64,000 bases of DNA, from assembly GCF_002931075.1 (NCBI RefSeq), contig NZ_PSTQ01000003.1:62001-126000 (forward strand), written 5' to 3'. The stretch is from Pseudoclavibacter sp. AY1F1 (GTDB lineage: Bacteria; Actinomycetota; Actinomycetes; Actinomycetales; Microbacteriaceae). Positions 10,442-23,388 of the stretch are shown one piece after another (within the stretch, counting starts at the first letter, position 1; every line of letters starts with the position of its first letter). A model generated the notes under the pieces. It was given only the letters and a program-made list of their open reading frames with translations, was not told the DNA's origin and did no database searches. The position numbers were made by a program, and so were the translations under genes.

Positions 10442-10863
10442 CGAAGCACTCCCCCCGTCCCTCTGTACTTCACGAGACCGCATCTCTGCGGACTGGCGAT
10501 TCTTCTTGGCTACGCACCCGCAGCATGGTCAACGCACCGGCCGTGTGGCACTGGTGCGCAAGTCATTGTGATCTACCCGGAGAGATATCCACAACTTCTG
10601 TGGACAAACAGGCGGGTGCCTGTGCATAACTCGCGGGGGTAGGGGGCTAGCCTACGCCGGATCGGGACGCGCGCCAATCGCTTTTGAAGGATTCGGCATG
10701 TCGTGCGCGCGGCCGTCGGTGTCCTGAGCATAATGCTGGCCCTCTGGCGCCAGTTGACTGCCGGCCGCAGGTCACGTAGGTTAAGGCAGTTGTGCCCTTC
10801 GGTAGGGCACTTGTGAAAATCCGTACGGCGTCCGCCGATCGGGTCGTATCTTCCGGAGTTCTC
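10442..10863. promoter_or_regulatory. dnaA-rpmH divergent control region with DnaA boxes
   Basis: 422-bp gene-free stretch between divergent dnaA and rpmH. Three DnaA-box matches crowd 10585-10629: ATATCCACA (10585-10593), the exact actinobacterial form TTGTCCACA on the minus strand (10599-10607), and TTATGCACA on the minus strand (10621-10629). They sit in the dnaA upstream region and fit DnaA autoregulation. The right half holds the rpmH promoter. Confidence 0.7.
10754..10782 (+). promoter_or_regulatory. rpmH promoter (sigma-70 type)
   Basis: A -35 element TTGACT at 10754-10759 and a -10 element TAGGTT at 10777-10782 are separated by 17 bases, close to the housekeeping consensus. The predicted start leaves a leader of about 75 bases before the rpmH ATG at 10864. 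It probably drives rpmH-rnpA-yidD-yidC-jag. Confidence 0.7.
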
Positions 10864-11001
10864 ATGTCGAAGCGTACTTTCCAGCCAAACAACCGCCGCC
10901 GCGCGAAGACCCACGGCTTCCGCCTGCGCATGCGCACCCGTGCGGGTCGCGCCATCCTCTCGGCTCGTCGCCGCAAGGGTCGCACCGAGCTTTCCGCGTA
11001 G
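10864..11001 (+). CDS. rpmH: 50S ribosomal protein bL34
   Basis: 45-residue, strongly basic ribosomal protein: [19 protein letters not shown] and an Arg/Lys-rich tail ending GRTELSA. This is the full bL34 family length and sequence pattern. The ATG at 10864 is an internal start in a longer open frame; the upstream extension is not conserved in bL34. It opens the rpmH-rnpA-yidD-yidC-jag series found beside dnaA in most bacteria. Confidence 0.97.
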
Positions 11002-14209: not shown

Positions 14210-14476
14210 AAGGTTTAGTTGCGAGCCCGCTTGCTGAGAGCGTGAGTCTTGGATCGAGTTACGCCGATTCAACGCAGTCATTCGAAATTCCCTCGGTTGA
14301 GCCTCGTACACGCTCGTCGCCGCGGATATTTAATGCAATTCTGCATCTCGTGCGGTTCTCCTCGCTGAAGACGCGAGTACTGTGCCCACGGGGCTGAGCG
14401 CGCAATTCTGCTCGCGATTCGAGCTCGTTATGGCAACTTTTGTAGATGCGTCCGTGCAGAGACGATTTCGGGCACT

Positions 14477-14490
14477 GTTTCACGTGAAAC
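14477..14490. promoter_or_regulatory. parS site 1
   Basis: GTTTCACGTGAAAC, the perfect palindromic consensus for ParB binding. It is 268 bp after the rsmG stop and is the leftmost site. Confidence 0.9.
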
Positions 14491-14645
14491 TTTGAAGATT
14501 TGAGCCGGTGCAGACATGGAACGTCAGGTGTCTAGGTCGAGCAGCGGCTCGAAGACTGTTGATGATTCAGCTGGCTGTGGTGGGGTTGGGGTTGCTCTCG
14601 TACAGTACGTGGATCCGTGTCTGTCTGACACGGATGAAGCTACGT

Positions 14646-14690
14646 GCAGTGCAGTGCAGTGCAGTGCAGTGCAGTGCAGTGCAGTGCAGT
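14646..14690. repeat. (GCAGT)9 microsatellite
   Basis: Nine perfect tandem copies of the pentamer GCAGT. It is the longest uninterrupted simple repeat in the parS island and is not in a credible gene. Confidence 0.95.
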
Positions 14691-15237
14691 GCCAGTCTGC
14701 GGCGCAGTGTGCGGCGCAGTCCTGTGCTGCCTTGCGGCATAGAGGTTCACCCGCACTCTCTCCGGGCTAGCGTCGTTCGGCAGGTGTGTACTCCTCTGCG
14801 CCGAGTGACCCTCGCTCGCGTAGTCACCCTCTCGTCGGCAGGTGCAGTGTTGCTCGCTTGCCGGTAGTCAACTACACGTTCGCTACTCGCAGGACCTGCG
14901 ATCCTTCGTGACTGGTGGCCGCGCGTTGGGGCCGGGGTCGGTGGCGTGACAGGCGACAATTTCTGTCACTGGACCCGCTCGCCGTCTCTCGGTCGATTCG
15001 AAGGGCAGTGTTGAGCAGGGCACACACTCGAACACGCGAGTGTAGCAGCAGGGGGGTGCACACGCTGCTGGTCCCGCGCTCGACCAACATGAGGCCCTTT
15101 GACGTCGGCAGAGACGGTACTTCAATAGACAGTCAGAACTGTGGAACGCATCGGCGAACCGAAGGTAGTACACCGCAACGGCTCTGTGGTTGGGAGCAGC
15201 AATCGCGGTTTGAAAGTTTTCAATCGTTTTCGCGGTG

Positions 15238-15251
15238 GTTTCACGTGGAAC
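15238..15251. promoter_or_regulatory. parS site 2
   Basis: GTTTCACGTGGAAC: the consensus with a T>C-equivalent change in the right arm, so the site is asymmetric. Confidence 0.88.
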
Positions 15252-15379
15252 GAAGTCTGGCGACTGGTCATCGCGGTGCGACTACCTCATACGCGCTGAC
15301 TATTGCTACTGCCACTAGCGCGTATCTCAAAGCCAAGGCCCATCGTTGATTCTTCAGAACTTACTGTTCCTGAGCTAAG

Positions 15380-15515
15380 GCACGCAGGACAGGACAGGCA
15401 TGACAAGGAACGACAGGGCAGGGCATAAACAGGGAACGACAGGAACGGCAGGGCAGGGTGAGGGTGGCAGGGAACGGGAGGGCAGGGCGGGGATGGCAAG
15501 GCAGGCAGGGTTGCC
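15380..15515. repeat. degenerate GGCAGG/ACAGG purine-rich array
   Basis: About 135 bp of imperfect pentamer and hexamer units (ACAGG, GGCAG, GGAACG) with strong purine bias on the plus strand. No credible gene reads through it. Confidence 0.8.
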
Positions 15516-15925
15516 GAGCGAAATTGGCGTGGGCTGAAATGCGGGCTTTAGTTTCTTCGAGCTGCAGCAATCCGGGACGCTTCATGCTGCAGCCGGAGAA
15601 GTCAGCGCTTTCAGGTGAGCTCATCCGGTGGCACAACTCGGTCCACTGTCGTATCGGCGCTGAGCCACGGTCCCTCCGTCCGTCGAGACCGCCGAGTCCT
15701 CCGTGGGTCTTATCACTTCAAGCGGGCCCCATCCGCAACAACGACGGTAGCCTCCGAAAATGGACGCAAGAGTATGCGTCTATTCCAGGGGTCTAGATGT
15801 CGCTCAGGTTGCGCGGCCGGTGTTGGTGCCAGGCGGCAGGGGTTCTCCAGTCGGCTGTTCAGAGCCCGATACTGTGAAGGCCGATGATGTGGGCATACGA
15901 CGGGTGAAAAAGCCGAACTGATCAA

Positions 15926-15939
15926 GTTTCACGTGGAAC
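15926..15939. promoter_or_regulatory. parS site 3
   Basis: GTTTCACGTGGAAC, in the same orientation as sites 2, 4 and 5. It is 148 bp from site 4. Confidence 0.88.
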
Positions 15940-16073
15940 ATGTGAGGCCGGCGGAGGTCCCTATCCGAGATTTGTCGGTCCGAAGTCCGAACCCGTCGAC
16001 GCCAGCACTTCTCGCTAGAGTTCGACGACCTTGCAACTGTCGCCGCGTAGTTAGTGCGCAGGCGGCTCATTAC

Positions 16074-16087
16074 GTTTCACGTGGAAC
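16074..16087. promoter_or_regulatory. parS site 4
   Basis: GTTTCACGTGGAAC, paired with site 3. Confidence 0.88.
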
Positions 16088-16233
16088 GGCTTTGCCGAGA
16101 CAACACACCCGCCCACGTGCGGCGACAGCTGTCTGCGTGCGCTCTGGCTCGACGTGAGCTCGGTCAAGAGTGTCAAGCCAACCCACCTGTGCTTCTGCGT
16201 AGCAGTGAGCGGTCCGAGGTTAGTTAGTGCAGT

Positions 16234-16316
16234 GCTCTTGCTCTTGCTCTTGCTCTTGCTGTTGCTCTTGCTCTTGCTCCTGTTCTGGTTCTGGCCCTTG
16301 TTCTTGTTCTTGTTCG
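16234..16316. repeat. (GCTCTT)n hexamer microsatellite
   Basis: Tandem GCTCTT units, decaying rightward into GTTCTG and TTCTTG variants, over 83 bp. In one frame it would encode a run of leucines, which is a by-product of the repeat and not a gene. Confidence 0.9.
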
Positions 16317-16898
16317 GTCCAGTTCTTGGTCCTGCGCGCTTTGTGCATGCCATCCATCTACCGCGGGACACCATGAGCACCCTTGCCTGTGTGTTGAGCG
16401 ATGAGAGTCGCGCTGGCCCTGGAAGTGGACGTGCGATGCTCAGGGAAACGAGAGTCCGAAGTGGACTTACCTTCCAAGAAACGCGACACGGAGCGCAGCG
16501 CCACCAGTCTCTCCCGCTGTCGCTCTTGTTGCTGCCGCCATTGTCAGTGCTACTGGCGCGTGCACTGCCACTGACGGCGTCGATGTGAGTATCGGTGCCG
16601 CTTGCGTTGGTGACAACCACAAGTGCTGGTTCCGAGCACCGACGGGTCCGTCACGTCCCGTCCCGTCCCCTCGTCATATGGCTAGTGACTTCATAGGACG
16701 GGGGTCAATCGCTCTCACGCCACTAACCACGGAACGAGGTCGCGAGCCCAGGGGCACATTGGCGAAATCTGACGCCGATCTACGATCCGCAGGCAACACA
16801 ACTCGCGCCCACATCGTGAGTAGGCCCGACCCAGACCATCTGAGTTTCAGGAACTAGGTATCGGAAATGTTCGTTCGAGATGTCGGACGCTAGCTGTT

Positions 16899-16912
16899 GT
16901 TTCACGTGGAAC
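16899..16912. promoter_or_regulatory. parS site 5
   Basis: GTTTCACGTGGAAC, isolated, 825 bp from site 4 and 1,036 bp from site 6. Confidence 0.88.
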
Positions 16913-17603
16913 GAGGAGGGAGGCCATCAGGACAGCCAGAATGCACCGGCGCGGGTCTATCGCAATTGGATGCCGGTCGATCCCGGTGACCAGCCCGGTA
17001 GATCTGGTGCGGGGGGGCCCTCGCTGGCTTTTCTTAGACGGGTGTTGAGCCGCGCGCTACTCGCGGTCGTGGAGGGACAATGCAAGAGCAGTCTGAGCTT
17101 CCCTGTCGGACTGCAAGGCCACCTCCTGCACGGTGTCGATGTACCGTCCAGCTACCTACCCAGCCCCCTGCCGAGCACGATACTGCAGCCCCAAGTGAGC
17201 ACGCGCGAGCTCCGTAGACCGACTATCAGAATGCCCCAGACAAGGCCTTCGAGGTCGTTCGGCAGCGGGGCATACAGCGCCCGAGTGCTGGAGGTCAGAC
17301 GCCCAACGGAGAGGAGTTTCCGTGCCGAACCCAGCTGCCTTGCTCGGTGCAGTCCAGTGCTCGCTTGTGTCGGACTTCTCGTGACCGATCGGTGTGGCTC
17401 TGGGTTCGCAGTGCTGTACTCAGCGTCGCGTCTCTCAGGATTCTGCTCGGGTGCCCGTCTTCTGGTGTGCTGGAAGTACTACATACTCTGTGGCTTGTGG
17501 CTTGTGGCTCGTGCCTATCGGCCTCGTGCCGGGTTCTTCCGGCCCTCTCGTGCCCAGCGGCCGCGCAGTACCCAGTGCCCGGGGCCACTCGTGTTCAGCA
17601 GCT

Positions 17604-17665
17604 CCCCATGCCCCGTGCCCCGTGCCCCGTGCTCAGTGCTTAGTGCCCTGCGTGCCCTGCCCTGC
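17604..17665. repeat. (CCCCGTG)n heptamer repeat
   Basis: CCCCATG followed by three CCCCGTG copies and decayed units (CTCAGTG, CTTAGTG, CCCTG). Confidence 0.85.
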
Positions 17666-17934
17666 ATCTGGCCTATGCCTGATGCCTTCCGCCTGGTGGC
17701 CGTGGCTTCATGCAGCCGGTCTCATGCCAGAGACGCCAGCAACTGCTCGTCGATCGCATCGTGGTTGTGCTGTCGAGTGTCGAGCAGAGGTGAATGTGCC
17801 CTTTCCCATCGGATCGCCTCGGCTTCACTGGGGGTGCTTTTCGGTGGATGAGCCCAAGTTCCCAACAGCCGACGGTCGGCTTAGCCGGCTCTTCGGAGAC
17901 TCCGTGATCAAGTGAAAGGTAGGGCCTCTTCAGC

Positions 17935-17948
17935 GTTCCACGTGGAAC
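17935..17948. promoter_or_regulatory. parS site 6
   Basis: GTTCCACGTGGAAC, a perfect palindrome with C/G at the fourth position. It lies in the first copy of a 39-bp tandem duplication. Confidence 0.88.
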
Positions 17949-17973
17949 GCACCGCTGGACCGCTTGGTGATGC

Positions 17974-17987
17974 GTTCCACGTGAAAC
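17974..17987. promoter_or_regulatory. parS site 7
   Basis: GTTCCACGTGAAAC, in the second copy of the 39-bp duplication (copies at 17933-17971 and 17972-18010). Confidence 0.88.
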
Positions 17988-18190
17988 GCGCCGCTGGATC
18001 GCTGGGCCCCAGAAGACCGAACGTTTTGGGTCGGGCCTTCAACAGCGGATTGGTGTGGCCGGCAACACAATAGTTTGTGCGTTGTTTCGTGGAGTCGAGG
18101 TTTCACTGTCTGTCTTCGACATGTTGTCCTTTGTCCTTTGGTCTCGTGTCTGGTGTTCAGCAGTCGGTACTCCCTCCGCGCTGCTTGCCT

Positions 18191-18231
18191 GCGCTCTGCG
18201 CTCGCGCTCTGCGCTCTGCGCTCTGCGCTCT
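18191..18231. repeat. (GCGCTCT)n heptamer repeat
   Basis: Six units of GCGCTCT, one of them shortened by a base, within the parS island. Confidence 0.9.
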
Positions 18232-18631
18232 GTGGCGGCCTGTGCTGTGTGGCCGCCTGTGCAGTGCGCTCCTTGCTGATGCTCAGACAGACGGTCTCAG
18301 TCGGGGCGCAATGGAGGGCAAAGAGTCGTCCTAACGACGATGATCTGTGTTTCACGGGTATGTATCTCGAGGGTGGGCAGGACGTCCACCTTCCTCCGTT
18401 CGTGGAAATCCTCGGTTCGCCTGGGCGCGATGATCGCGAGATTGAGCCGCTTCCGAGGGCGATGTGGGTCTCTCTCGGAGCGGTATTGGGCGCGAATTGA
18501 GCTCGAGTGCCAGTGCGGCTGGAGTGAGTCCGCGCACGGACTGGGTGTGGTGGTTCTTACGCTTGCCAGCCGCTCTACAGCAGCGACAAGGAATGAATCC
18601 AAGTTGGGCAGTTTGCGTGAGCCGATCGGGT

Positions 18632-18645
18632 GTTTCACGTGAAAC
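18632..18645. promoter_or_regulatory. parS site 8
   Basis: GTTTCACGTGAAAC, perfect consensus; the symmetry extends to 18 bases (18630-18647). Confidence 0.9.
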
Positions 18646-18711
18646 ACTCCCGGCCGCTCTGTCTTGGATCCCATGCCTTGCCGTGTTCTTTTGAGTTTCA
18701 ACCTAAGAAGT

Positions 18712-18725
18712 GTTTTGCATGAAAC
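18712..18725. promoter_or_regulatory. degenerate parS-like copy
   Basis: GTTTTGCATGAAAC keeps both arms but has lost the CACGTG core. Flanks AGAAGT on the left and GAA on the right are shared with site 9, exactly 60 bp away, so it looks like a decayed duplicate. Confidence 0.5.
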
Positions 18726-18771
18726 GAATACATAGTGCCCGATTGAGCGCAAACGCATGGAGGCGAGAAGT

Positions 18772-18785
18772 GTTCCACGTGAAAC
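18772..18785. promoter_or_regulatory. parS site 9
   Basis: GTTCCACGTGAAAC, 140 bp from site 8 and 60 bp from the degenerate copy. Confidence 0.88.
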
Positions 18786-19220
18786 GAAACAGAGCTCGCA
18801 ATGTGTCGCGGAGCCAATTGGCTTCTCTCTCCCGAGTTGTGAGTGAACACATCCCCTCCTGCCGTCTGGACGAGCGGGACACGCTTCACTGAATAGCTAT
18901 CTACGCTTTGGCATGCGGCGAGGGTGGTCTAGTTCTCGGTTTTTCGGCAGGCTCTCGCTGCTCGCTGCCGGGGTGAGATAGTTCCTGCTGAGGTGTGCGC
19001 AATTTCGTTGGTCTTGACGATTGGCTGTCGCCAGGCGCACCACAAGTCTTCGCGCTCAGTTGCACGTTCGAGACTCGCCGCCCTAGGCAAGGATGTGTGA
19101 GGGAAGGAGGGCGCTTGGGACTGGACGAAGTGACACCTACAGGCTCTGGCTGATGGCTGAGAGTGAGGGACAAGCTAGGCCGTGCCGCGGTAGATGTCAG
19201 AAGTGTTTGCAAGAAGCGAT

Positions 19221-19234
19221 GTTTCACGTGGAAC
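19221..19234. promoter_or_regulatory. parS site 10
   Basis: GTTTCACGTGGAAC, isolated site. Confidence 0.88.
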
Positions 19235-19574
19235 TCAACCGCAGGAACTGGGCCTCGAAGTCGGGCGCCTGGACCTCAGATCAAGAGTGTAGCGATCCGA
19301 CTCAACGAAGTGGTCCCGGCGGACACGTGGCGGGCCGCGCTCGCGCTCAATGAGTTGCATGTCGCGACGAACATTGCGAAGGGAATTCTCGGACGCGCGG
19401 AGGGTGTCGAGATGCTGAGCGTGTGAATCACCGAAATCGACCTCCTTCACAATAGGGAGCATTTGGTGACGCGTCTCGTGGATTCGGAGGGCGGCAGCCT
19501 ATTGGGTCAGGTTGCAGCCGCATAGTCTTGCCCGCGCTGGGAGAGAGAGCTCTGGAGAACCGCGAGCTCAGTAC

Positions 19575-19596
19575 TGTGAGCTGTGAGCTGTGAGCT
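19575..19596. repeat. (TGTGAGC)3 repeat
   Basis: Three tandem TGTGAGC copies, followed by related GAGCTC words. Confidence 0.75.
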
Positions 19597-20055
19597 CCTC
19601 ACTACGAGCTCGATACTAGGTGCTTCTCGTCGTTGAGCAGTCCGTGCTCCGCTTCGCAGTAGAAGCTTGGGGACTCCCACCACGACGGCTACGACTCCAA
19701 GTTTGGGGTGCGTTCACGCATGTCTGTCGCGAATGCGCGCCTATCAGAACCTGAATCGGGAAGCTTCGTCGTCTGCTTCGTTTCACCCTGGAGTCGGGCC
19801 ACGACCGACTGATTCCCCTTATGATCTTCACCATGAACGCCGGCCGGCGCGGGTGAGATCCCTGTCTTCCAGCGGCGATCCTGGTGAGCGCGGCCATGAG
19901 CGCATACGAGCACATCCCGAGTTGAGTGCGTGACTGCTCGGCTGATTGCTAAGCGCGGTCAACACGCGGCACGGACGAATGCCGAGTCGGAGAGGCAGAC
20001 TCGGTCGGTCCGGCCGACACTGGTCCCGTATCCGGGATGTGCACAATCTGCGGCT

Positions 20056-20069
20056 GTTCCACGTGAAAC
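20056..20069. promoter_or_regulatory. parS site 11
   Basis: GTTCCACGTGAAAC with flanking T and A that extend the inverted symmetry by one pair. Confidence 0.88.
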
Positions 20070-20405
20070 ACGTTTGTTTGGCGCGCGTTGGTTTTGCTGA
20101 AGATGCAGTTGCTACACAGGTTTCCAGGTTTGCTTCGTTCGGCTTTAGAAAACGTCGGCGATGGACGAGATCACAGAGACTGTGCGATGCAGCGCACGGC
20201 TGGCAACCGAGTTCGGTCAATTGGTCCCCGGCAAGGTCTGTTCTGCTACCCGATCAAAGACTGATCGCTCCGCCGCCCCCGTCATCACTGCTTGATTTGT
20301 CTTCACTGCTTGTTATCCCACTCCGCATCTCGCTGCGGACTCTGTGCTCGCAATGACCAGTCTCTGGAACTCATTGGGATGGTGGTTGTGGCCGGGAAGC
20401 CCGAG

Positions 20406-20431
20406 AACCCCAACCCCAACCCCAACCCCAA
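20406..20431. repeat. (AACCCC)4 repeat, G-quadruplex-capable
   Basis: Four AACCCC units. The minus strand has four G4 runs separated by two T, the pattern of ciliate telomere DNA and a strong candidate for a G-quadruplex. Confidence 0.9.
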
Positions 20432-20706
20432 CACACACCACTACCTGCTCCACTCGGTAGCCGAGCTGCTTAGTGTGGCTGTGTCGTATTCGGGCTCATA
20501 CAGCGTGCTGGGTGTTCGATGTCTTGGGGATCATTCGACTGTCAAGGGTGGGACGCCTCCTAAGCTCGCCTCGGGCCCGATACGGCACGCTACCTGCACT
20601 CACAGACGGCCGACGTCCCCTACTGATCTATCAACCATGGACAAGGCTGCTCAGTGGAACAGCTTGCAGCACGAGCTGAACCGCGTCGGCGAGCTGAACT
20701 GCGTCG

Positions 20707-20720
20707 GCTTCACGTGAAAC
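20707..20720. promoter_or_regulatory. parS site 12 (variant)
   Basis: GCTTCACGTGAAAC: one change in the left arm at the second base. It lies 20 bp before site 13 with matching flanks. Confidence 0.75.
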
Positions 20721-20726
20721 GGTCGC

Positions 20727-20740
20727 GTTTCACGTGGAAC
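20727..20740. promoter_or_regulatory. parS site 13
   Basis: GTTTCACGTGGAAC, 20 bp (about two helical turns) from site 12; both are followed by GGTCG. Confidence 0.88.
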
Positions 20741-20880
20741 GGTCGGCGTCCGACCAAGAGTCATTCGCACCTCCTCGTTTGTGACGCGCGTCGAGAACCC
20801 AGCTTCAGGGTGTCGGACAAGCGTTCTCGTCTCACTGCCGCGTGCCGAACCCTGTAGTTGAAGTTGAAACCACCACGTCT

Positions 20881-20894
20881 GTTCCACGTGAAAC
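20881..20894. promoter_or_regulatory. parS site 14
   Basis: GTTCCACGTGAAAC, 102 bp before the parA start, so within the probable parAB promoter region. ParB bound here could repress its own operon. Confidence 0.88.
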
Positions 20895-20995
20895 AGGCCG
20901 GGTGGAACGTGCGCGATTCCACAACTCTGAGCGTCACCGCGTTTCCCGCGAGGATGTGGGGCACAATTGAGACGTCTACTTGAGGGAGAGCATTC

Positions 20996-21919
20996 TTGAA
21001 AGCTTCATCTGCCGGCGATGCCGCGACGCCACCCGCGTCAGGGCTCGACGATTCACCGCTCGCGACAGCTCTGTCCGAGCTGAACCAGCGGAGGAAAAGC
21101 CTGGTCAAGAAGGAAGTTCCCCTCCCCGACCACACGCGCATCTTCACTGTCTCCAACCAAAAGGGTGGCGTTGGTAAGACCACTACAGCGGTCAACTTGG
21201 CAGCCGCACTCGCGACGCTCGGCGCACGCGTTCTGGTCATCGACCTGGACCCACAGGGCAACGCGTCGACGGCGCTTGGCATCGAGCACCGCGGTGAAAC
21301 GGCCGGCACTTACGAGGCGCTGCTCGACGGCGAACCGCTGAGCGAGCTGATGCAGCAATGCCCCGACATCGACACGTTGTGGTGCGTCCCGGCGACGCTG
21401 GACCTCGCCGGTGCCGAAATCGAACTCGTCAACCTCGATAAGCGCGACTACCGACTGCGTCAGGCCATCGCTGCCCTCCTCGACGAGACAACAGGTACTG
21501 AAGAAGAGTTTCACTACATCTTCATTGACTGTCCTCCCTCCCTCGGGCTGCTGACAATCAACGCCTTCGTGGCTGCCCGCGAGGTGCTCATCCCCATCCA
21601 GTGCGAGTACTACGCGCTCGAGGGTCTCGGCCAGTTGATCGCCAACCTCAACCTCCTGTCGCAGGACCTCAACCCACAGCTTCGACTCACAACGATCCTG
21701 CTAACCATGTACGACGGACGAACCAACCTGTCACAGGAAGTCGCCGCAGACGTGCGCGAACACTTCCCCCAAGAGACGCTCAAGGTTGCGATCCCGCGCA
21801 CCGTCCGCATCTCCGAGGCGCCAAGCTTCGGCAAGACCATCATTTCGCACGAACCAACCTCGACCGGCGCGATCGCGTATCTCGAAGCGGCCGTCGAAAT
21901 CGCCCAGCGAGGAGCATAA
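20996..21919 (+). CDS. parA: chromosome partitioning ATPase ParA
   Basis: 307-residue ParA/Soj ATPase that moves ParB-parS complexes along the nucleoid. The deviant Walker A is KGGVGKTTT with the signature lysine, Walker A' is VLVIDLDPQGN, and Walker B is YIFIDCPPSLG. The DNA-binding C-terminal part ends in the usual GAIAYLEAA segment. Start TTG at 20996 has a GAGGGAG ribosome site 7 bases upstream. The 45 residues before the ATPase fold are variable, as in other actinobacterial ParA. parB follows after 5 bases. Confidence 0.96.
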   Translation: MKASSAGDAATPPASGLDDSPLATALSELNQRRKSLVKKEVPLPDHTRIFTVSNQKGGVGKTTTAVNLAAALATLGARVLVIDLDPQGNASTALGIEHRGETAGTYEALLDGEPLSELMQQCPDIDTLWCVPATLDLAGAEIELVNLDKRDYRLRQAIAALLDETTGTEEEFHYIFIDCPPSLGLLTINAFVAAREVLIPIQCEYYALEGLGQLIANLNLLSQDLNPQLRLTTILLTMYDGRTNLSQEVAADVREHFPQETLKVAIPRTVRISEAPSFGKTIISHEPTSTGAIAYLEAAVEIAQRGA

Positions 21920-21924
21920 CAACC

Positions 21925-23388
21925 ATGGCAACCAAAAAACGCACTGGACTAGGACGAGGCATCGGCTCCCTCATCCCCACCTCGGACAGAGGCGCATCAC
22001 GCCCCTCAGACGTCTTCTTCGACAGTGAAACGCCTGCCTACCCCACGACTGCATCGACGCGTACCAATGCAGCCACGAAGGTTCCAGACGCCGCCAGCGA
22101 CGCGGTCGAGGCGGCTCCCTCGACGACGACCGCCGCTGAATCAGCAGCCGAGGAACCAAAGCGAAAGACGCCCGCGACTCGGACCACGCGCGCCAAGACT
22201 CCAACGGCCACACCAGCCGCGGCCAAGTCAGGCACGGCAAAAACGACGGCAACTAAGCCCAGGGCAGGCGCAGCAGCTGCCGCGAAGACACGAGCAACAA
22301 CGGCCGCCGCGACCGCCAACGACACGGCAAACGACACGGCAAACGACACGGCAAAAGACACGGCAAAAGACACGGCAACAGGGGCCAAGGAGGACACTGA
22401 ATCGAAGAACATCGATTCAGTAAGCATGGTTGAGGACACGTCAGAACTGGCCGCGAGCACGGTAACTGATGTTGACGCTTCCGCAGCTACGCGCGGTGGA
22501 GACACCGCCCCCGACAGTAGTGACGACAACTCGGACGGACTCATCGAGATCCCCGGTGCCACCCTGCGAGCTCTCGACCCAAGCCGCATCGTCCCCAACG
22601 CGCACCAGCCCCGCACCGAGTTCGATGAGAGCGCGCTGCAGGAACTCATCATCTCCGTCCGAGAGTTCGGCGTTCTGCAGCCGATCGTCGTGCGCCCCAT
22701 CCCAGACGACCACCCGCTGCGCGACGAAGCTGACTTCGAGCTCATTATGGGTGAGCGCCGCCTCCGTGCGACGAAAGCAGCGGGGCTGCCGAGCATCCCG
22801 GCCGTCATCCGGAACACCGAAGACGACGTCATGCTTCGTGACGCGCTCCTCGAGAACCTGCACCGCAGTCAGCTGAACCCCCTCGAAGAGGCATCCGCGT
22901 ACCAGCAGCTGCTCAACGACTTCGGCATCACGCAGGAAGTGCTCGCCGAACGTATCGGCCGTTCGCGTCCGCAGATCAGCAACACGCTCCGCCTCCTGCG
23001 CCTGCCGCTTGAGGTGCAGCGTCGCGTGGCTGCCGGTGTGCTCTCCGCCGGCCACGCTCGCGCGATCCTCAGCGCAGGCGAGCCGGCAGCTATGCAGCAG
23101 CTTGCCGACAAGATCGTGAACGAGGACCTCAGCGTCCGTTCCGCGGAAGCGGCAGCCGCCAAGTCGAGCAGTGCCAAAGCGGACACTCAGGCACCCATCC
23201 ACAAGGAGCCACGCAGCGGCCTCACCGGCTACCTCGACGAGATCGGCGAGCAGCTCGGCGACCGCCTCAACACACGCGTCAAGGTGACCCTGCGGCGCAC
23301 CAAGGGCCAGATCGTCGTCGACTTCGCGTCGATCGCCGACCTCAACCGCATCCTCGAGGAACTCGGCGAGTCAGCACCCGGCAAATAG
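21925..23388 (+). CDS. parB: chromosome partitioning protein ParB (CTPase clamp)
   Basis: 487-residue parS-binding clamp. The N-terminus KKRTGLGRGIGSLIP is the ParA-contact motif. A very long linker, about residues 25-200, is Ala/Thr/Lys-rich and has a TAND/TAKD tandem repeat at 22317-22380. The CTP-binding domain follows with IVPNAHQPRTEFDE, GERRLRATK and ENLHRSQLNPLEEA; the parS-reading helix-turn-helix is EVLAERIGRSRPQISNTLRLL in two parts; the C-terminal dimer domain ends near RILEELGES. ParB is usually 300-350 residues, so the linker explains the extra length. ATG at 21925 has GAGG-type site GCGAGGAG upstream. Confidence 0.96.
   Translation: MATKKRTGLGRGIGSLIPTSDRGASRPSDVFFDSETPAYPTTASTRTNAATKVPDAASDAVEAAPSTTTAAESAAEEPKRKTPATRTTRAKTPTATPAAAKSGTAKTTATKPRAGAAAAAKTRATTAAATANDTANDTANDTAKDTAKDTATGAKEDTESKNIDSVSMVEDTSELAASTVTDVDASAATRGGDTAPDSSDDNSDGLIEIPGATLRALDPSRIVPNAHQPRTEFDESALQELIISVREFGVLQPIVVRPIPDDHPLRDEADFELIMGERRLRATKAAGLPSIPAVIRNTEDDVMLRDALLENLHRSQLNPLEEASAYQQLLNDFGITQEVLAERIGRSRPQISNTLRLLRLPLEVQRRVAAGVLSAGHARAILSAGEPAAMQQLADKIVNEDLSVRSAEAAAAKSSSAKADTQAPIHKEPRSGLTGYLDEIGEQLGDRLNTRVKVTLRRTKGQIVVDFASIADLNRILEELGESAPGK

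Follow-up and report, generated by a model that had tools for sequence, protein, structure and literature searches.

The stretch analysed here (the window, 64,000 nucleotides) comes from Pseudoclavibacter sp. AY1F1 and carries, in this order, jag, rsmG, a gap with parS sites, parA and parB. The gap is a non-coding island of 6.8 kb containing 13 exact copies of the motif GTTYCACGTGRAAC and one site, site 12 (GCTTCACGTGAAAC), that is one base off this motif. When the 4.1-Mb genome was searched with the exact motif, 13 matches were obtained, all of them inside the island, and a reversed control pattern gave none. Ten open reading frames (ORFs) of the island had no Pfam match at the curated cut-off, and an Rfam search of the island gave none at the family cut-off, with three matches below threshold; hidden genes (among the ten ORFs tested) and RNAs were considered and not found at these cut-offs. 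The parB product scores 179 bits with TIGR00180 (cut-off 58) and resembles solved ParB/Spo0J proteins. Because all exact sites lie in the gap, no gene or RNA was found in it and ParB is encoded beside it, the gap is identified as the putative parS cluster of the chromosome, that is, its predicted centromere beside parAB. The features are as follows, with the strand where one was assigned and the supporting evidence in brackets.

14210-20995: parS island, non-coding, between rsmG and parA
14477-14490: parS site 1 (motif match)
15238-15251: parS site 2 (motif match)
15926-15939: parS site 3 (motif match)
16074-16087: parS site 4 (motif match)
16899-16912: parS site 5 (motif match)
17933-17971, plus strand: tandem unit 1 (39 bp) with parS site 6 at 17935-17948 (self-match, flank score)
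17972-18010, plus strand: tandem unit 2 (39 bp) with parS site 7 at 17974-17987 (self-match, flank score, genome-wide pattern count)
18632-18645: parS site 8 (motif match)
18706-18728, plus strand: decayed parS copy (three mismatches, 18712-18725) with the flanks of site 9 (self-match, shuffled-island alignment)
18766-18788, plus strand: parS site 9 (18772-18785) with the shared flanks (self-match, shuffled-island alignment)
19221-19234: parS site 10 (motif match)
20056-20069: parS site 11 (motif match)
20672-20707, plus strand: 18-bp tandem duplication immediately 5′ of site 12 (self-match)
20707-20726, plus strand: 20-bp unit with parS site 12, one mismatch (self-match, flank score)
20727-20746, plus strand: 20-bp unit with parS site 13 (self-match, flank score)
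20881-20894: parS site 14, nearest parA (surroundings align across all four closest species)
20996-21919, plus strand: parA (ParA-like; no NCBIfam model at cut-off)
21925-23388, plus strand: parB (ParB domain at residues 214-396)

Duplicated segments in the island and across the genus

The preliminary description of this DNA had proposed that parS sites multiply by local tandem duplication, and the three cases it put forward are all present in the sequence where it had placed them. Similarity around the sites was measured with a flank score anchored at the motif, in direct and inverted orientation, for sites with at most one mismatch. Sites 6 and 7 do lie in two 39-bp tandem copies: positions 17933-17967 and 17972-18006 are identical at 31 of 35 bases (89%) with an offset of exactly 39 bp, and 18 of the 21 bases outside the motif agree. 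The flank score of this pair is 12, a value reached by only 0.02% of 9386 unrelated site-pair scores. A 20-base pattern of the flank occurs without mismatch at these two places only, with no third full match in the genome; when two mismatches were allowed, nine places were found as compared to 8 for a reversed control pattern. The tandem duplication of the 39-bp segment (17933-18010) is secure.

For site 9, the segments 18706-18728 and 18766-18788, at a distance of 60 bp, are 83% identical over 23 nucleotides and share AGAAGTGTT and GAAACGAA. Their local alignment score of 17 exceeds the maximum of 15 obtained across 60 shuffled islands, so that the proposed sharing of flanks between site 9 and a decayed copy at 60-bp distance stands against all 60 shuffles. 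The flank has just two occurrences in the window. This pair, with its decayed site, is a well-supported duplication. A third copy of the same flank, suspected by eye near 19201, was rejected, its score of 9 being below the shuffled mean of 10.9. The case of sites 12 and 13 as 20-bp copies was upheld in part. Five of six flank bases agree, and the flank score of 6 corresponds to p ~0.009 for a single pair, before correction for the 13 neighbouring pairs, which is weak on its own. An 18-bp unit at 20672-20689 recurs at 20690-20707 (94%) and runs into site 12; with this adjoining repeat, duplication of the 20-bp pair (20707/20727) is plausible.

Flank scores were obtained for the loci of 48 out of 60 genomes, eight of them in the focal genus (102 sites). 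The genus contains eight pairs of sites at most 75 bp apart, with mean scores of 5.38 in direct and 2.38 in inverted orientation. Their summed direct score of 43 compares with 9.7 (standard deviation 4.4) under permuted labels, and none of 5000 permutations reached it. When one genome, G005, was left out, the sum was 31 against 7.4, again with 0/5000. The flanks of close pairs in the genus are thus more alike than those of random site pairs, the comparison that the preliminary description had named as able to overturn its proposal. At 75-300 bp, the signal derives from G005 alone. By flank scoring, most parS sites in the genus have no recognisable duplicate partner.

The island of G005 contains an array which is a better case of duplication than the three focal ones. 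On the reverse complement of its locus (L112), six intact sites are found at 10854, 10972, 11090, 11145, 11199 and 11307, with decayed sites at 10919 (three mismatches) and 11037 (four mismatches). The spacings are 65, 53, 65, 53, 55 and 54 bp, then 108 bp; midway in the 108-bp gap lies a remnant with five mismatches, for which the probability by chance is about 5%. We compared the 10 bases downstream of each site with one consensus. The six array sites agree with it at 7-9 positions and both decayed copies at 7, as compared to only 1-4 for the other 12 G005 sites. As shown by the spacings and by the downstream consensus common to intact and decayed array sites, a 118-bp unit of two sites is repeated, and its second site has decayed in both copies by different changes. 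At the aligned place in G001, the sister of G005, the spacings between sites are 65 and 54 bp, and one site carries a mismatch. Head-to-tail copies that include the flanks are therefore found both in the focal 39-bp pair and in the G005 array.

Overall, because of the secure and supported focal pairs, the permutation result in the genus and the G005 array, local tandem duplication is a real route by which parS sites are born. A few neighbouring sites are head-to-tail copies of a parS-bearing segment, and some of these copies have lost the motif; the full reading, in which a spaced set of sites would also be selected, we consider probable.

Decay of sites and divergence of the island

Degenerate sites were counted in nine islands, the eight of the focal genus and that of G029, from another genus of the same family. 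One-mismatch sites number 15, six of them in G008, where 0.05 are expected (0/60 shuffles), and three-mismatch sites number 11 against 5.1 expected (0/60 shuffles). Two-mismatch sites number 2 against 0.5 expected, a count reached in 4/60 shuffles, and both are in G029. Since the one- and three-mismatch counts exceed those of the shuffles, degenerate or variant sites exist beyond chance. The spacing of sites is more even than random in G008, G004, G003 and G007, and not in G005. The G008 island (L114) has ten parS-like sites, six of them with one mismatch; the coefficient of variation of its spacing is 0.25, and none of 500 random placements was as even.

The sister species G001 and G005 allowed us to follow the DNA between the sites. 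Their identity is 95.0-96.6% in the 17.7 kb upstream of the island and 92.9% in the 20 kb downstream of it, with blocks at 79-92% further away. By global alignment the adjoining 6 kb on each side are 93.2% and 92.0% identical, and the lowest 100-column windows there are at 63% (jag-rsmG gap) and 64% (parB). In nine genes, identified by eye, the two species differ at 350/1739 four-fold sites (20%). The islands themselves (6066 and 6092 bp) show 49.5% global identity as compared to 42.2-42.6% for three controls, of which one was reversed and two were shuffled, and local matches cover only 561 of 6288 bases. Among 32 gaps between genes called in G001 by a rough rule, three are mostly unaligned (the island, an ORF stretch and the region end); where a gap aligns throughout, identity remains at 76-81% even in the least conserved cases. 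The segment 40841-43592, which also fails to align to G001, was considered as non-coding drift and set aside, as it is made of long ORFs and looks like gene replacement. A further unaligned stretch begins at about 58000 and lies at the end of the window.

In the alignment, 8 of the 14 G001 sites coincide with G005 sites, a count that the aligner may raise by favouring the motif. Seven sites of the two species lie at most 15 bp from equal distance to parA, against 2.06 expected (P 0.0005). In this pair the motif, and often its place, is kept while the DNA between sites turns over faster than synonymous sites. Conserved positions as a general rule were rejected, as they were seen in G001/G005 only and the other five pairs of the four closest species were negative. 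Between the focal genome (G000) and the other three close species, clear flank homology was found at the parA-proximal site only. In G003 (L116), G004 (L117) and G029 (L118), the island lies between jag and rsmG, in gaps of 8.4, 4.7 and 3.8 kb; islands have therefore been built in different gaps or have moved.

Origin of the sites and alternative explanations

A course of events consistent with these data can be proposed. Short tandem duplications would arise all over a fast-changing non-coding island, by replication slippage or by unequal exchange, perhaps using neighbouring parS as homology. A duplicated segment carrying parS would give birth to a new site. ParB and SMC loading would favour retention of a spaced set; many old sites would be under purifying selection, surplus copies would decay and the DNA between sites would drift. 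Sites without a partner would be either old copies with diverged flanks or of other origin. In G005 the repeat lengths are the same as the intervals from one site to its neighbour, which is compatible with an exchange in which parS copies recombine. As to the earlier proposal that slippage or unequal exchange makes sites of which some decay, duplication and decay are supported; slippage and exchange are not distinguishable.

Several results weigh against duplication as the origin of the sites. The comparison used one genome per species. In the genus, the inverted control was mildly raised (19 against 8.6; 22/5000), no direct-score excess was seen at 75-150 or 150-300 bp without G005, and no two-mismatch sites were found in the islands. 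The other genera of the 48-genome set gave no flank signal (4 pairs at most 75 bp apart). In the nine islands, only 8 of 98 gaps do not exceed 75 bp, as compared to 17.05 under uniform placement (P 0.003); with so few close gaps, most close copies must have been lost or moved apart if duplication is the main source. Local direct repeats occur in most islands (60 segments), and in 3/60 both copies touch parS. As this is about the share of island sequence touching parS (5-19% by genome), parS would be carried along by a general repeat process rather than targeted, and the idea that local duplications prefer parS was rejected. At the aligned place of the array, the gap is 453 bp long in G005 as against 485 bp in G001, which does not polarise gain versus loss of sites. 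In addition, replacement of islands by recombination may be an alternative source of their divergence.

Nor does the whole set of sites form one tandem array. No common period stands out, a ~53-bp period suggested by gaps in G008, G005 and G001 was not significant, and Tandem Repeats Finder (score at least 40) reported no parS-containing array in any of eight genomes.

Data from other actinobacteria were mixed. When 394 genomes across the class were searched by pattern, 98 of them had parS pairs separated by 6-36 bases. In a sample of 29 scored loci out of 30 retrieved (the locus of the window being left out), 12 of 39 pairs at most 75 bp apart reached a direct score of at least 6 and none of 39 an inverted one, as compared to 4% of unrelated pairs. 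In G390, three sites are joined through two identical 9-base linkers. Against this, 35 of the 39 spacings are divisible by 3, and the close pairs were in an open frame in the ten loci that were inspected, several of them inside an N-terminal extension of ParA. Such in-frame pairs were observed in L178, L191, L193, L189, L183 and L167 (around position 1501), several of these loci showing VSRET repeats in the ParA extension; in L195, an in-frame close pair precedes RsmG (FHVKQ/FHVKH). From the spacings in multiples of 3, duplication in those loci looks in-frame. Together with the open frame, they also suggest that part of the flank similarity in those loci may reflect constraint on the protein.

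Also unfavourable, 80 named loci with 20 pairs at most 75 bp apart showed no excess (mean score 2.4 direct and 2.2 inverted, one pair of each reaching at least 6). Microbacterium gubbeenense (L048 / L197) represents a second genus of the family and has 13 exact parS sites, all in a 4.6-kb island; in a sample of 20 of the 38 matching genomes of its genus, none of 7 pairs at most 75 bp apart had a direct score of at least 6. For pairs up to 200 bp apart, such scores were obtained for 5/51 direct and 2/51 inverted comparisons. The retrieved loci of 19 relatives of M. gubbeenense, some of them partial, have 4-14 sites. Across 50 genomes outside the focal genus, exact sites number 0-6 in 42 genomes and 7-10 in the other 8. 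Six candidate arrays of this second genus were aligned (G529, G531, G490, G453, G494 and G474). The five units of the G529 array (159-162 bp) are 48-66% identical outside parS, shuffled units giving 40% (maximum 54%); G531, G490 and G453 are slightly above shuffled identity and G494 is marginal. Part of the likeness, in G529, G490 and G531, lies in words resembling repetitive extragenic palindromic (REP) elements. The evenly spaced units of G474 count against duplication, as they share nothing beyond parS and their identity is at the shuffled level.

The earlier proposal that sites multiply by local tandem duplication therefore holds for the focal pairs, for the G005 array and for some other actinobacteria; in view of the close gaps and of the local repeats it is not shown in general. 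Duplication as the main source of sites is likewise not shown, most sites having no traceable copy, the spacing being even and two further samples giving no signal.

These same observations bear on a rival view that we find quite possible, if somewhat short of probable: most sites would be products of point mutation in non-coding DNA that drifts close to existing sites, where ParB already works, and tandem pairs would be occasional passengers of general repeat-making. The partnerless majority of sites, their more-even-than-random spacing and the absence of a concentration of local repeats at parS all fit this view, as does the tolerance of extra parS near the native cluster reported by Tran et al. 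2017 (PMC5815017). It fits less well with the duplicated flanks at several close pairs and with the rarity of two-mismatch sites, of which a stepwise origin might leave more; the 15 one-mismatch sites look like decay, though they could be tolerated variants.

Flanks might also be alike for functional reasons, through an extended motif for ParB or an accessory protein or, in other genera, through protein constraint. GAT before and ATC after the motif recur by eye across actinobacterial loci and the pairs of the ten loci checked are in frame. In the genus, however, distant and between-genome pairs lack such similarity, the likeness is mainly direct and not inverted despite the palindromic parS, and the G005 flank is present at the array sites and missing from 12 others, which makes a functional cause improbable. 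Dispersed REP-like elements beside parS appear slightly less probable still. The stretches of G529, G490 and G531 contain words that we take to be REP-like, but a third full match to the focal 39-bp flank is absent from the 4.1-Mb genome, and the flank of site 9 has no more than two occurrences in the window. As for chance or an assembly artefact, the 20-bp pair taken alone is near chance (p ~0.009, uncorrected); in view of the permutation result in the genus, of similar islands in the single-contig genomes G003 and G008 and of the differences between the islands of eight species, such an explanation is hardly credible. The preferred reading remains that some neighbouring sites are copies of a parS-bearing segment.

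Known centromeres and neighbouring features

Plasmid centromeres such as sopC of plasmid F consist of head-to-tail repeats, in regular arrays of a different motif. The focal island resembles sopC in having head-to-tail repeats, whereas its spacing is irregular and its tandem runs are short. Satellite centromeres of eukaryotes are born in tandem and contain higher-order repeats. The parS islands are like them in tandem birth, in the two-unit periodicity of G005 and in fast turnover with kept function; in contrast, a parS island is small and defined by a binding motif, and the likeness concerns the mode of evolution only. We tentatively suggest that the centromere may evolve as satellites do: the island would outpace synonymous sites yet retain its length and a large part of its site set, sites would be born in tandem or as two-unit repeats and would decay, and selection would see number and spacing and not sequence.

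Clusters of parS are already known on chromosomes. In Myxococcus xanthus, 22 putative parS repeats are packed into 3 kb, at some 4 kb upstream from parA (PMC3899335; also PMC3778016). This cluster is like the focal island in being dense, beside parAB and of the same motif family; the excerpts of these papers are silent on tandem origin, on decay and on fast divergence, and in the focal island, where 14 sites occupy 6.8 kb, duplicate units can be seen. In Corynebacterium glutamicum, also an actinobacterium with a multi-site centromere, ten parS sites are scattered along 35 kb, in one gene and otherwise between genes, whereas the exact focal sites all lie in one gene-free stretch. According to the report on this centromere (PMC7083940), its degenerate sites failed to recruit ParB, and cells with a single parS had wild-type-like growth. 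Caulobacter has clustered parS, and new sites are tolerated near old ones (PMC5815017). The authors of that work call the expansion of the centromere-like region an interesting question; in the portion of its text consulted, no mechanism of site birth is given and the word "tandem" is absent. As C. glutamicum grows normally with a single parS and extra sites are tolerated in Caulobacter, surplus sites may be nearly neutral.

Among the matches listed in our literature search, neither tandem birth and decay of chromosomal parS nor a hyper-divergent island was found in titles and abstract openings; subscription journals lay mostly outside its scope, so that absence from print is not established. 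The record of birth and decay, seen here across a genus and not met in the literature searched, bears on how parS clusters grow. Duplication helps explain centromere growth, although most sites cannot be traced to such a copy. The comparison also separates the conserved features of the centromere (motif, number, spacing) from the unconserved DNA between sites. As sister species are close enough for their neighbouring genes to be aligned, the question of cluster growth becomes testable by sequencing strains.

Of the proteins encoded next to the island, RsmG passes the NCBIfam cut-off of its family, while Jag and ParA are below cut-off, ParA having ParA-like matches only. ParA is 66% identical to that of a Leucobacter sp. 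and has a match at E < 1e-80 in 58 of the 60 genomes searched, with only ~1e-52 and ~1e-55 in G002 and G006. In these two genomes of the focal genus, exact parS sites are absent and parA gives no match at 1e-75, even though the completeness of G002 is put at 97%; an assembly gap at the island is perhaps the cause. The N-terminal part of ParB (21925-22560) consists of about 210 residues rich in Ala, Thr and Lys before the ParB domain, and contains a 12-bp tandem repeat at 22318-22378. The segment 21920-22868 is only 76% kept between G000 and G001. Short-unit repeats (GTGCA, TGCTCT, CTGCGCT, AACCCC) are abundant in the focal island. Tandem arrays cover 6.7% of it as compared to 1.8% of the remaining window, and 0 to 4.7% of the other islands.

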